Below are positions 9 through 62,231 of a stretch of DNA of 64,000 nt, in pieces. The notes beneath the pieces are model-generated. The model saw only the letters and a list, made by a program, of their open reading frames with translations, was not told where the DNA came from and did not search any database. The position numbers and the translations under genes were made by a program. The stretch comes from Methanobacteriota archaeon (GTDB lineage Archaea > Halobacteriota > Methanomicrobia > Methanomicrobiales > Methanoculleaceae), in NCBI GenBank assembly GCA_016841955.1, contig JAENYE010000004.1, positions 128,697 through 192,696 on the forward strand, in the 5' to 3' direction. The stretch's first letter is position 1. The number at the start of each line of letters is the position of its first letter.

Positions 9-290
9 CGAACCGAAGGAACGGAGTTCGAGAAAATTGCGCAGCAATTTTCGAGCAGCGACGCGTGCCCCAAGGGCGGCGCGGCAGGAGCACGAGCACC
101 GAAGGTGCGGCGACGGGCCGGGCGGGGTTGCAGGCCGAACATCGCGTTCGAAGCCTGGCGGCTTCTCACGCTCCGGACTCGAAGACCTTTGGTCTTCTCA
201 AACTCCGCCTGCCCCTAACGGGGCACGCGTCGCCTTCGAAAACGCTTCGCGTTTTCTCAAGCTCCGTTCGGCCCAACGAGCCGAACATCG
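9..290. repeat. Array of TTC/GAA-loop hairpin modules (copy A)
   Basis: This gene-free stretch downstream of moaA holds at least six perfect short hairpins. They are AAAATTGC/GCAATTTT (33-51, flanked on both sides by CGAG), GCACC-gaa-GGTGC (96-108), GAAGCC/GGCTTC (150-165), GAAGACC-ttt-GGTCTTC (181-197), GAAAACGC-ttc-GCGTTTTC (238-256) and GTTCGGC/GCCGAAC (266-286). GCCCC-taac-GGGGC at 211-224 is a seventh. Three stems are followed by TCACGCTCCG, TCAAACTCCG or TCAAGCTCCG, the tail seen in other arrays of this window. Open frames here have no recognisable protein. The last hairpin may serve as the moaA terminator on the minus strand, but that is inference. Confidence 0.8.
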
Positions 291-291
291 C

Positions 292-1170
292 TTACACAAA
301 AAACGGCTTGCGCCTGCTGACGGCTTCGCGGAACGCGTCTTCCAATTCCTTGCCGTGCTTGCCCCTGATATCGACCAGGTTGTCGCTCCGCAGAAGGCAG
401 GGCTTGAGTTTTCCGTCCGATGTCACGCGCAGGCGGTTGCAGAATGCACAGAACTCCGTGTTGTGGAGGGGACGGACCACCTCGATCTCGGCGCCGTCGA
501 GACAGTACTTCTTCCGGTGGTGCATCCTGCGGGTGACGACCCTGGTTGCCCGGTCGTTCAAGTCCTGCTCGACGCCGTCCACGTCCCCGTGGAACTTGCA
601 CTCGTTGAACTCCATCAGCTCGATGACCTGGAGGATGAGATCCTGCTTCCCCCTGACAAACGCCATGAAGTCGTCCACCTCGTCCTCGTTGATGCCGTCG
701 AGGAGCACCATGTTGAGCTTGACCGGGGTCAGTCCGACCTCGATCGCCGCGTCGATCCCGGCGAGAACGTCCGCGAGGCAGTCCTTCCCCGTGATTTCCC
801 GGTAGCGCTCGGGACGGAGCGAATCAAGGCTGACGTTCACCCGGGCAAGTCCGGCCTCTTTGAGTTCCGCAGCCTTCGCCGCAAGCAGCGTCCCGTTCGT
901 CGTCAGGGATGACTCGACGCCCGGCGGGACCGAGCGGATGATGTCGGGGAGGTCGCGGCGGAGCAGGGGCTCCCCGCCGGTGAACTTGATGCTCTTGATG
1001 CCGAACTGCATGCCCACCTGCATCAGCTCGGCGATATCCTCGGCACTCATCTGCTCCTCCGGGTTCACCTCGCCCTCTGCATGGCAGTAGATGCACCGCA
1101 GGTTGCACCGGGAGGTCAGGCTTATCCGGAGGTTGGTCACGGTCCGGTTATAGGGGTCTTTAAGCACCAT
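292..1170 (-). CDS. moaA: GTP 3',8-cyclase (molybdopterin biosynthesis protein MoaA)
   Basis: MoaA rearranges GTP to 3',8-cyclo-dihydro-GTP, the first step of molybdopterin synthesis, which methanogens need for tungsten or molybdenum formylmethanofuran dehydrogenase. The 292-residue protein has the radical SAM motif CNLRCIYC near residue 22, the glycine-rich TGGEPLLRRDL segment, and the C-terminal cluster motif CAFCNRLRVTSDGKLKPC that binds the second [4Fe-4S]. The double glycine that ends bacterial MoaA is absent. The start is the ATG at 1168-1170, which gives the usual family N-terminus MVLKDPYNR; the frame stays open further upstream but would run into rlmE. It overlaps the rlmE end by 11 bases, so the two are probably translated as one unit. 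Confidence 0.93.
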   Translation of the reverse strand: MVLKDPYNRTVTNLRISLTSRCNLRCIYCHAEGEVNPEEQMSAEDIAELMQVGMQFGIKSIKFTGGEPLLRRDLPDIIRSVPPGVESSLTTNGTLLAAKAAELKEAGLARVNVSLDSLRPERYREITGKDCLADVLAGIDAAIEVGLTPVKLNMVLLDGINEDEVDDFMAFVRGKQDLILQVIELMEFNECKFHGDVDGVEQDLNDRATRVVTRRMHHRKKYCLDGAEIEVVRPLHNTEFCAFCNRLRVTSDGKLKPCLLRSDNLVDIRGKHGKELEDAFREAVSRRKPFFV

Positions 1171-1759
1171 CGCATGTTCCCTTGAAATTCTTTGCAATAA
1201 TGTAGGTCTCGGCACTTCCTTTCCGCGACGCCTTCGTCCGATACCCCCGGACGGAATAGAAATGCTTCCTTGCCTCGGCAATCAGCTCCCCGAAGAGCTC
1301 GCCCTGGAACGACTTGATCACCATGTTGCCGCCGGGTTTCAGGATCGTGCAGGCAAACGCCAGGGCATCCTCGCCGAGGCCGATCGCACGGGCCTGGTCG
1401 TAGCTCTTCTGGCCGGAGAGTTTCGGCGAGGCATCGGAGACCACGACGTTGACGATGCCGCCCGCCTCCTCGCGGATGCGCTCCTGGACGAGTGGGTCGG
1501 TGAAGTCCCCGACGATAGTGGTGACGCCTTCCATGGGCGCGATAGGATTGAGATCCACGCCGATGACCTTTCCTCCGGTCAGATCGCGGAGCACCTGCAG
1601 CCAGCTGCCCGGCGCCGCCCCGAGGTCGACGACGTTATCGCTGGGCCTGATGATCTCATTGCGCTGCTGGATCTCCAGCAGTTTGTAGGCGGCCCGTGCC
1701 CGGTATCCAGCCTTCATCGCCTTTCTGTAGACGCTGTCTTTTGTCCATTGAGAGCCCAT
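1160..1759 (-). CDS. rlmE: 23S rRNA (uridine-2'-O-) methyltransferase, RlmE/FtsJ family
   Basis: This is a 199-residue SAM-dependent RNA 2'-O-methyltransferase of the FtsJ/RrmJ type, which methylates a uridine in the A-loop of 23S rRNA. Visible are WTKDSVYRKA and YRARAAYKL at the N-terminus, the SAM-binding VVDLGAAPGSW (about residues 42-52), DLNPI, the catalytic-region Asp in VVVSDASPKLSG and a Lys in VIKSF, consistent with the K-D-K-E tetrad. The start at 1757-1759 has a GGAGGG Shine-Dalgarno about 11 bases upstream; an upstream in-frame start adds 20 residues not typical of the family. Its end overlaps moaA. Confidence 0.92.
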   Translation of the reverse strand: MGSQWTKDSVYRKAMKAGYRARAAYKLLEIQQRNEIIRPSDNVVDLGAAPGSWLQVLRDLTGGKVIGVDLNPIAPMEGVTTIVGDFTDPLVQERIREEAGGIVNVVVSDASPKLSGQKSYDQARAIGLGEDALAFACTILKPGGNMVIKSFQGELFGELIAEARKHFYSVRGYRTKASRKGSAETYIIAKNFKGTCDGA

Positions 1760-1944
1760 TGCGAGATTACCCTCCACTTGAGGCCGACGGATGGCTGCCT
1801 GCACCCTCAGCACGATCAAGGAGATTATGTATAGTATTTGATGCAGTCAATCATGAATGATACGGTTCCGGAGTCCGGGGCCGATCGCCGTCTGCCGTGA
1901 CCGCTGCCACGACCGGCGCCATGAGGCTTTGGGCCGGTTTTGAT

Positions 1945-61386: not shown

Positions 61387-61450
61387 GTGTGACCTCCGCT
61401 GAACGAGCGGCGTCCTGAATCACAGTAAAACTCACAATATATATGGGTTT
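61387..61450 (-). promoter_or_regulatory. gyrB promoter and leader with hairpin at the ribosome site
   Basis: On the minus strand CCCATATATATTG (about 61434-61446) is the TATA box. The leader then contains CCGCT-cgttc-AGCGG (61396-61410), and the 3' arm AGCGG is the start of the ribosome site AGCGGAGGT. Folding of this hairpin would cover the first bases of the Shine-Dalgarno sequence. Confidence 0.55.
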
Positions 61451-61601
61451 TATAACCACTTATACTGTATGGCTCCGGAAAATTCCCTGTTTCAGGGTTA
61501 CCCTGCCGGTCCACGGCTCGATGGAGCCTCCACGCGAGCGCGCCCCGAGAGGTCGGGCATCCCGACCGATCCCGGTCTTTAGGCGGGAGAAAGCGCTCCC
61601 G

Positions 61602-61916
61602 TCAGTCGTACTTCCCGGTATCGGCGTCGGGTATGCCGAGGTGCGTATCGACTGCGACCGCGAGCCGGTTGAGGACCCTCTTGATGTCCGCCGCATCCTC
61701 TTTGTCCAGGGTGCCCGGCTGGTGCCAGATCACCATCTTGCGGAGGCGCTCGACGAGTTCCTCGATCTCGGTTCCCCGGAACTGCTCCGGCACCTTGAAG
61801 TCGTTGAGGTGATCCGCGGCGCCGTAGAAGGCTTTCTCGGGGGGCAGGCCGAAGTGCCGTGAAAGCAGCATCAGGTTGACGACGAACCCTCTGCCGAATT
61901 CGCTCTTTGCGGGCAT
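61602..61916 (-). CDS. Conserved hypothetical protein
   Basis: A 104-residue protein: SEFGRGFVVNLMLLSRHFGLPPEKAFYGAADHLNDFKVPEQFRGTEIEELVERLRKMVIWHQPG, then ADIKRVLNRLAVAVDTHLGIPDADTGKYD. It looks helical and soluble. It may be a methanogen-specific conserved protein, but I cannot name a family. It stands alone between gyrB and the cobalt transporter. Confidence 0.65.
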   Translation of the reverse strand: MPAKSEFGRGFVVNLMLLSRHFGLPPEKAFYGAADHLNDFKVPEQFRGTEIEELVERLRKMVIWHQPGTLDKEDAADIKRVLNRLAVAVDTHLGIPDADTGKYD

Positions 61917-62231
61917 ACTACCCTATGCACCGCAGGTCGATATGAACGATCCGTTTTTCCGCGTACCGAAGTTTTCCCTGAAACGGTTCCGGTTCTGCGG
62001 ATCGGCCCTGCCTCAAACCTATCACTGGTTTCCATCGGGTTGCGACAAACAAACCGAGCGAAGCGGGGAAAAATCCCGGTACAGTGGACCGTGGGAGCAC
62101 GAGCACCGAAGGTGCGCAGTCCCCTCGAAATCCGTGTCAGGTAACCGAAGGGAGTGTGAGGAGACCGGAGGCTAGGCGAGGTGCGACGGACGGAATGCGG
62201 CTGGCCGAAGGTGCAACTTGCCCAACCTAAT
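61917..62231. repeat. Intergenic region with one hairpin module (copy G)
   Basis: No supported gene. At 62103-62115 lies GCACC-gaa-GGTGC, preceded by GGGAGCACGA, identical over at least 20 bases to the unit at 88-108. After it come CGAAGGGAGTGTGAGGAGACC and GAGGTGCGACGGACGG, wording very like that at copies A and D. Confidence 0.6.

Follow-up and report, generated by a model that had tools for sequence, protein, structure and literature searches.

Bacterial interspersed mosaic elements (BIMEs) are intergenic mosaics of repetitive extragenic palindromes (REPs) and other motifs, and a REPIN consists of two inverted REPs that form one long hairpin. Mini-hairpins of DNA that form on one strand and carry a stable purine loop are also known from the promoters of the N4 virion RNA polymerase and from other cases of the d(GNA) type, and the double-hairpin elements of Allomyces mitochondria consist of two small GC-rich hairpins with variable stems. 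REPs linked to a REP-associated tyrosine transposase (RAYT) are the known case (PMC3116915, PMC3733652). In the latter paper, the CGTC class has a CGTC end, a stem of 8-9 bp, a loop of 4-5 nt, a CCA tail and mostly head-to-head dimers. The repeat analysed here was seen in a 64,000-nt stretch of Methanoculleus DNA (contig JAENYE010000004.1, positions 128,697 to 192,696; hereafter the window, or W), which belongs to a genome (G000) of 2.43 Mb in 9 contigs. It is a unit of about 46 nt with two unlike small hairpins, hpA and hpB, is often found in direct tandem, and is larger than the module described in the initial annotation. The strand that bears GGAG, which is also the better-folding strand, is called the R strand. 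Fetched loci and compared genomes are numbered with L and G.

Like the GTAG and CGTC families of REPs in the accessible part of PMC3733652, the units are short intergenic palindromes of many copies, show complementary stem changes and form clusters and dimers. They differ in apparently lacking the GTAG or CGTC/CCA tag architecture, in their loops (mostly GN(N)A, 3-4 nt), in combining two unlike hairpins, often in direct tandem, in the absence of a Y1 match from the genome, and in being archaeal; in the text of PMC3733652 the string 'methano' has 0 occurrences. Where the GTAG class has a GTAG-type tetranucleotide at one end of the palindrome, it is mostly CGAC or CGAT that stands before hpA and mostly GA that follows hpB. 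In contrast to CGTC-class REPs, the stems are mostly 4-9 bp, the loops mostly 3-4 nt, and close neighbours of the GCACC type are direct in 28/39 pairs at 500 bp or less (counted in G003 and, for G007, among its first 63 places). Unlike the halves of a REPIN, the hairpins of one unit are unlike each other, and close neighbours are mostly direct. The broad description of REP/BIME systems as short, intergenic, high-copy and modular palindromes does apply, with at least 160 matches in the genome and 40/40 strictly defined units between called genes. Similar to BIMEs, the units form intergenic mosaics with other repeats, but a unit may also lie within the hairpin of another one or within a larger repeat resembling a miniature inverted-repeat transposable element (MITE), and the stems of the units are not fixed. 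The Allomyces elements differ in belonging to a fungal organelle, and the N4 hairpins in being phage promoters. Among the papers listed by literature searches none describes the unit, and a search on double-hairpin elements gave no paper. The family is best called a new variant of the REP/BIME system, which it resembles in its working, and not a RAYT-linked REP, a REPIN or a CGTC-class REP. The reading favoured here, with hardly better than even confidence, is that these are REP/BIME-like non-coding dispersed repeats of Methanoculleus that are propagated as short folded single-stranded DNA. Several features agree with elements that exist in this form and spread or are copied without a recognisable transposase: a strict local geometry, loops that follow the DNA-type code, orientations without gene-strand bias, empty sites and nested units.

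On the R strand the unit reads NNCGAY, hpA, GGAG[CT]NNGA, hpB, GA, with hpA flush against GGAG and hpB after the linker. The four bases 5' of hpA, which were not imposed, are CGAC or CGAT in 95/103 units, and hpB is followed by GA in 181/243 cases and by GG in 39. Most stems have 4-9 bp and most loops 3-4 nt; the commonest hpB stems are GCACC, GAAGACC, GAAAACGC, GAAACCC, GCAC, GAAGCC and CCACC. Both hairpins share one formula on the folding strand, GA-[stem]-GNA or GNNA-[stem']-GA. For the window and the loci fetched by orthology with no hairpin pattern (710,235 bases), hpB has GNA in 39/45 triloops and GNNA in 24/31 tetraloops, all 63 closed by C-G, and hpA has GNA in 20/26 triloops. A larger set, in which hpB GAA loops are inflated by the pattern used to fetch loci, fits the rule in 152/164 triloops and 42/51 tetraloops of hpB and in 69/98 and 30/35 of hpA. 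Loci L106-L109, fetched by the Y1 family, were excluded from this set and from the outer-pair and hpB pair and mismatch counts below, and two chance pattern matches (L058, L059) from the unit scans. Only 4/61 and 5/68 of the other hairpins in the window fit the GNA/GNNA rule. The TTC or GAA triloop pointed out in the initial annotation is one case of this wider rule.

GNRA-class RNA tetraloops require a purine at the third position. The fitting tetraloops of the orthology-fetched set are mostly GNYA (24/28), with C at the third base in 21, T in 3, A in 4 and G in 0; in the larger set these numbers are 37, 21, 13 and 1. Loops of the extra-stable d(cGNAg)/d(cGNNAg) kind make up 63/76 of hpB, all C-G closed; for hpA, 24/35 loops fit with any closing pair and 13/35 with C-G. 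According to their titles in the reference lists of PMC7432603 and PMC5090098, Yoshizawa 1997 and Nakano 2002 name GNA and d(cGNNAg) as stable DNA motifs; a literature search worded for GNA/GNNA DNA loops found no paper. The R strand folds better in 93/94 units with DNA parameters and in 94/94 with RNA parameters. Sheared tandem G.A pairs are stable. DNA folding of the R strand at 48580-48640, one of two stretches folded, shows a 2x2 GA internal loop in hpA.

Pairing between arms was examined with alignments and anchors. From 94 units with two perfect hairpins, alignments of 45 (A1) and 35 (A2) were made; A1 was dropped for A2 because 3-nt and 4-nt hpA loops shared one frame in it. The rows of A2 were preselected for perfect stems, so that its 100% pairing is a product of selection and was not counted as evidence. 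The covariance model R1 was built from 35 of the 94 units, none of them from the window. When hpA was picked by outside anchors alone, the 87 distinct sequences with a gap of 13 showed 84.8% of arm positions paired and 14 different full stems, compared with 52% after the right arms were re-dealt (largest of 2000 shuffles, 59.1%). With a gap of 14, the 47 distinct sequences were paired at 63.8%, against 47.1% shuffled (largest 55.7%). The initial annotation had stated that both arms always change together; changes that are mostly matched are found here and also at one orthologous site.

The pairing extends beyond the stem. The first pair outside CGAY..GGAG is Watson-Crick in 132/149 cases (shuffled mean 86.7, maximum 102) and the second in 78/149 (mean 42.6, maximum 56; for example AA..TT, CG..CG and TG..CA), while no effect is seen at the third (39 against 42.9) or in two out-of-register controls. 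For hpB, the pair beyond GA..GA is Watson-Crick in 79/154 (mean 59.2, maximum 77). Because the outer pairs covary across the G.A step, most of the near-constant tail forms the opposite strand of a helix in which a tandem G.A/A.G step is an interruption. The tail noted originally, TCAAGCTCCG, is the complement of the GGAG linker of the R strand; it is present as described, and as a part of the fold it itself varies in matched pairs. Of 919 linker-like sites GGAGNNNGA, 253 (27.5%) have a perfect hairpin that lies flush with them towards hpB, a figure inflated by the many loci fetched with a pattern containing part of the hairpin; 60 permuted linkers gave a mean of 3.9% and a largest value of 12.1%. 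The tail alone was rejected as a mark of the family, as its enrichment in the window is weak (34 matches with at most one mismatch against 22.95 expected, a number reached by 2/100 shuffles).

All 40 strictly defined units lie between called genes, in agreement with the initial annotation, which had placed the modules only there. This test covered 346,888 bases, 80.6% of which were coding by an in-house open reading frame caller, and L110 was left out of it as lying on the same contig as L226/L227. In co-directional gaps, 22 units are found, with the R strand in the sense of the genes in 11 and against it in 11. The remaining units lie in convergent gaps (9), divergent gaps (2) and at contig edges (7). 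Convergent gaps thus hold 9/33 units in 9.7% of the gap bases, and divergent gaps 2/33 in 30%; divergent gaps seem to be avoided, at small numbers. Such a preference counts in favour of RNA elements under pairing selection, that is, transcribed hairpins at the 3' end that stabilise or terminate the mRNA or bind a protein, and the higher stability of the folding strand with RNA parameters (94/94) agrees with this as well. Covarying stems alone are no proof of functional RNA, and the even orientation to co-directional genes, the GNYA rather than GNRA character of the fitting 4-nt loops and the gaps that are empty in many relatives speak against it, as does Rfam, which in the window gives nothing but one tRNA at gathering score. 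Filtered single stem mismatches consist of 7 G.T, 6 A.C and 15 others (n=28), a ratio that also argues against RNA; a wider count gave 15, 11 and 34. In the unfiltered hpA cells chosen by anchors, however, G.T exceeds A.C by 19 to 11 (gap 13) and 27 to 8 (gap 14), among the ten commonest types per position and partly from units out of register. This excess leans towards RNA and shifts the odds slightly from the DNA reading to its RNA rival. On the whole, the suggestion of RNA under pairing selection, raised as an alternative in the initial annotation, is quite unlikely.

The comparison of syntenic gaps called for in the initial annotation shows that orthologous sites are filled in some species and empty in others. 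Downstream of a rhodanese gene (window 47057-47130), 16 sequences can be compared: eight are occupied directly after CTCTCTAAA (W, L110-L113, L116, L118, L119), seven are uninterrupted (L115, L117, L120, L122, L123, L127, L134) and L121 is rearranged. At this one site three stems of hpA occur: GGTCC/GGACC (W, L113), TGCCG/CGGCA (L119) and GGCCG/CGGCC (L118). L110 and L112 pair as GGCC/GGCC with the register shifted by one step, L116 has one broken pair, and the hpA of L111 is split by a further complete unit. The hpB stem is GAAAACGC in W, L110, L111, L116, L118 and L119, and GAAAACAC/GTGTTTTC, a matched change in both arms, in L112 and L113. By eye, the unit at the compared sites has no terminal inverted repeat and no clear target duplication. 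Nesting was found elsewhere too. In the gap at 48379-48626, the arms GGTTC and GAACC of W enclose 49 nt that contain a complete unit, at a place where just gta is present in L119, and outer arms enclose a unit at 18/114 suitable anchors (shuffled mean 6.5, maximum 17 in 300). The larger repeat was aligned in 20 copies, that of the window and 19 fetched ones; 13 of them, including that of the window, carry the unit directly after GGGGCGGGG or a close variant, and seven do not (L206, L207, L209, L218-L220, L225). Finally, between G026 and G031 the rhodanese site has 7 differences in 20 bases of hpA and linker, while the rest of the unit is near identical; few units were available in this comparison over a short time. 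This block replacement points to module exchange and is suggestive, because it is one site and the surrounding 1.3 kb are only 90% identical. The mobile, recombining REP-like modules supposed originally are supported in part, by covarying stems, by recurrence across the genome and the genus, by empty and filled sites, by units inside other repeats and by the exchange suggested at one site; a link to RAYT/Y1 is not supported.

Matched arms could also be produced by neutral mutation, in which template switching at hairpins (quasi-palindrome correction) would keep any short palindrome perfect and slippage would multiply it in gene gaps, without machinery for propagation and without the fold being selected. 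This is the main rival, and mutation may in part explain the matched arms. It accounts for the lack of a wobble bias among filtered single mismatches and for tandem arrays such as that of L105, with a period of 51 nt and 5.4 copies; in several close GCACC-type pairs the tandem spacing is 45-47 nt. Occasional inversion of the loop with the stems intact (ttc for gaa) is likewise expected from hairpin inversion, and is seen in hpB of L111 at the rhodanese site and at L095:1025-1074. The persistent GN(N)A loops, the GA flanks of the stems, the covarying outer pairs, and the clean empty and filled sites are left unexplained by it, and it gives no account of G036 (below), from another family of the order, in which the design recurs while stems and linkers differ. 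As a full explanation, neutral mutation is considered unlikely.

The family was searched for in the genome, the genus and the order. In its own genome, R1 gave at least 160 matches at E<=0.1, probably a floor as 150 of 3669 candidates were scored. In Methanoculleus, 33/35 genomes have matches, 25 of them with at least 23 and eight with 1-7; the two with zero (G020, G033) are fragmented and 80-88% complete. A scan of the genome and its relatives, proposed at the outset, thus found the family to recur in both. A search of 232 genomes of the order at E<=1e-6, with stricter filters than in the own genome, gave matches in 41, namely the 33 of Methanoculleus, G082 and seven others with 1-4 each. G082, which belongs to a sister genus within this family, had 64 matches in a deeper search; ten 49-nt matches score equally there, and a recently amplified subtype may dominate this genome. 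One GCACC-type pattern had 129, 81, 68 and 6 copies in G007, G003, G010 and G001; its reversed control had 0. G036 is 71% complete and comes from a different family of the order, and hairpins near three of its matches (L248, L258, L263) have the stems GGGTCC, GCGAC, GATTTCC and CTGCTCCC, partly with another linker, GACCTCGA. Classed by eye, the 11 hairpins flanked by GA on both sides there have eight GNA/GNNA loops, two atca and one agg; hairpins without GA on both sides also occur in these neighbourhoods. Judging from these sequences, G036 appears to carry a diverged relative of the double-hairpin family. A single pattern scanned among viral contigs, GGAGYNNGAGCACCGAAGGTGCGA, had 0 matches.

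This distribution bears on two further explanations. Binding sites of a nucleoid, segregation or replication protein that reads the hairpin or a bent GA-rich joint, with copy number kept by function, would suit the many copies in most Methanoculleus genomes and the strict local geometry. The positions are not conserved between species, match numbers vary from 0 (G020, G033) or 1-7 (eight genomes) to more than 20 elsewhere, and there is no replichore pattern, which makes such a role very unlikely. Classical REPs or REPINs moved by RAYT, a Y1 HUH transposase, also share short, intergenic, modular palindromes of many copies. A look for a linked transposase such as RAYT/Y1 was among the checks proposed in the initial annotation; PF01797 had 0 matches at E<=0.001 in the own genome, and 0 in the unit-rich G003, G007, G008, G010, G015 and G026. 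It was found in 7/35 Methanoculleus genomes (G033, G011, G018, G020, G023, G030, G032), the match in G032 being below the family cut-off, and G033 has 19 matches, many of them fragments. Five of these seven genomes have only 0-5 family matches, and G018 and G032 are rich. Together with the mostly direct, not inverted, close neighbours (28/39), this leaves movement by RAYT extremely improbable. In the accessible part of PMC2686161, the column with 3 transposable elements appears by Pfam count to be that of M. marisnigri.

For propagation as folded DNA, the following course can be proposed, and only this step goes beyond the anatomy and distribution described above. Hairpins would form when a strand becomes single during replication or repair, or by extrusion under supercoiling. 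Each would take shape on one strand, from an extra-stable loop, a stem, the tandem G.A/A.G step and the outer pairs. A nuclease and polymerase path of the host, or another enzyme, might then copy or insert units near other hairpins, and tandem arrays might come from slippage. Exchange or template switching between copies would swap a whole hairpin, so that both arms change at once and what is conserved would be mainly the fold. Selection would then restrict units to gene gaps, and only rarely to divergent gaps. A benefit to the cell is not part of this account. A wider statement, that this is a class of selfish or house-keeping DNA in which the fold and not the sequence is heritable, which as single-stranded hairpins of the form GA-[any stem]-GN(N)A-[complement]-GA copies itself between gaps of Methanomicrobiales genomes without a known transposase, lands on other hairpins and swaps whole hairpins, with stems free to drift and a constant geometry, is possible and is offered tentatively.

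A number of observations weigh against this reading. The copies are related, so that the significance of the shuffle statistics on stems and outer pairs is overstated. The 28 GNNA loops are not 28 independent cases, 19 of them being one loop, GTCA in hpB; the 4-nt loops of hpA fit the rule in just 4/9, and its triloops are often G-C closed (GgaaC in 11/26). Folding stability fixes the strand and not the molecule, DNA or RNA, and DNA folding of the R strand at 47049-47107 gives no GA internal loop. The commonest flank class, TGCGAY..GGAGCT (TG..CT), leaves T.T at the second outer pair in 46/149 cases. Perfect 5-bp hpA stems are missing from L110, L112 and L116 at the rhodanese site, and nine of the 18 nested cases fall in three recurring composites. 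Bias between leading and lagging strands is not significant: the clusters of G003 divide 36 to 24 (p 0.155), and the first 63 of 129 places in G007 divide 38 to 25. Movement is inferred from differences between species, with one genome each, and not between strains; the block replacement is a single case in a stretch of 90% local identity; and no enzyme or insertion event was identified in the analysis.

Most repeat families are known by their sequence. In the present family, shape is best conserved, and the loop code is that of stable DNA hairpins. If these units do spread as folded single strands, Methanoculleus would offer hundreds of natural variants of the DNA hairpin code, a testable route to repeat amplification that needs no dedicated transposase, and a model of the way in which gene gaps turn into mosaics.

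As seen in Table 1, hairpins and tails are present in the window where the initial annotation had placed them, and 12 R1 matches at E<1e-6 cover all seven of its regions, which contain members of one dispersed family.

Table 1. Double-hairpin units, parts of units and the larger repeat in the window (R strand as + or -; E, expectation value of the R1 match)
Feature	Position	Strand	Details
Unit	4..54	+	hpB GAAAATTGC.gca.GCAATTTTC after linker GGAGTTCGA; R1 4-44, E 1.7e-7
Unit	57..112	+	hpB GCACC.gaa.GGTGC after linker GGAGCACGA; R1 57-112, E 4.1e-10
hpB and tail	150..175	-	GAAGCC.tggc.GGCTTC (on +), tail TCACGCTCCG
hpB and tail	181..207	-	GAAGACC.ttt.GGTCTTC (on +), tail TCAAACTCCG
Full unit (on +)	238..292	-	hpB GAAAACGC.ttc.GCGTTTTC, tail TCAAGCTCC, hpA GTTCGGC..GCCGAAC, then ATCGC; R1 245-292, E 1.6e-8
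Degenerate hpB	18335..18359	-	GAAGAC.tttca.GTCTTC then TCGAACCG (on +); read directly, no R1 match at E<=1
Unit	18506..18548	-	hpB GCACC.ttc.GGTGC (on +), tail TCAAGTTCCG; R1 E 6.8e-13
Unit	24928..24971	+	hpB GCATC.gaa.GGTGC, one T.G mismatch; R1 E 5.3e-9
Larger MITE-like dispersed repeat, carries unit	27933..28280	+	
Unit within MITE-like repeat	27989..28044	+	hpB GCACC.gtca.GGTGC; R1 E 1.2e-17
Unit	28316..28359	-	hpB GCAC.ctgc.GTGC (on +), tail TCACGCTCC; R1 E 9.2e-12
Unit	28364..28406	-	hpB GAAGCC.tac.GGCTTC (on +), tail TCAAGCTCC; R1 28369-28406, E 2.7e-8
Partial unit, model positions 21-42 only	47029..47049	-	R1 E 1.2e-4
Full unit	47057..47103	-	hpB GAAAACGC..GCGTTTTC, hpA GGTCC.gaa.GGACC (folding strand); R1 47064-47103, E 1.4e-12
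Full unit	48373..48418	+	hpA GTTCC.gga.GGAAC, linker GGAGCAATA, hpB GCACC.gcta.GGTGC; R1 E 5.5e-20
Linker and hpB	48421..48451	+	linker GGAGTTCGA, hpB GAAAACGC.gaa.GCGTTTTC
hpB and tail of outer unit	48557..48582	-	GAAGACC.ttc.GGTCTTC (on +), tail TCAAGCTCC
Outer hpA arms enclosing second unit	48583..48641	-	GGTTC 48583-48587, GAACC 48637-48641; R1 48587-48647, E 1.1e-18
Unit	62057..62119	+	linker GGAGCACGA, hpB GCACC.gaa.GGTGC; R1 E 1.6e-9

Two described sets of repeats come near to this material. The initial annotation knew of no described family of this form, which is nearly right: the 45-nt and 51-nt tandem families of M. marisnigri may be the same thing. In the accessible part of PMC6749651 these satellites, Fam_48_45_4 (45 nt) and Fam_102_51_3 (51 nt), are listed as tandem repeats only. 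They share the genus, their periods fit the 45-47 nt spacing and the 51-nt array of L105, and, matched by description only, they may be the tandem form of the unit. According to the same part of that paper, families of long repeats mostly lie within genes, and a Methanocella family is the sole clearly non-coding one in Archaea, which speaks against this identity. The accessible part of PMC8044849 describes recurrent G-quadruplex repeats of Methanomicrobiaceae including Methanoculleus, which are intergenic, about half of them between convergent genes; judged from the loop sequences quoted there, the resemblance of this motif is to the G-rich core in the MITE-like repeat and not to the double hairpin.

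MITEs are marked by terminal inverted repeats and a target duplication made by a DDE transposase. The larger repeat has inverted ends, which in five copies read GGCTTTGTTGAAACC..GGTTTCAACAGAGCC or nearly so. It is about 350-420 bp long with a core GGGGAGGGGG..CCCCCTCCCC, and matches are found at many places genus-wide (L206, L207, L218-L220 and others); L224, fetched with these copies, gave no row in their alignment. Additionally, a second type of intergenic repeat, CGCGAAG..CGCGAAGAACGCGAAG / CTTCGCGGCTTCGCG, lies beside the units in the window at 18350-18490 and in L010, L018 and L019.

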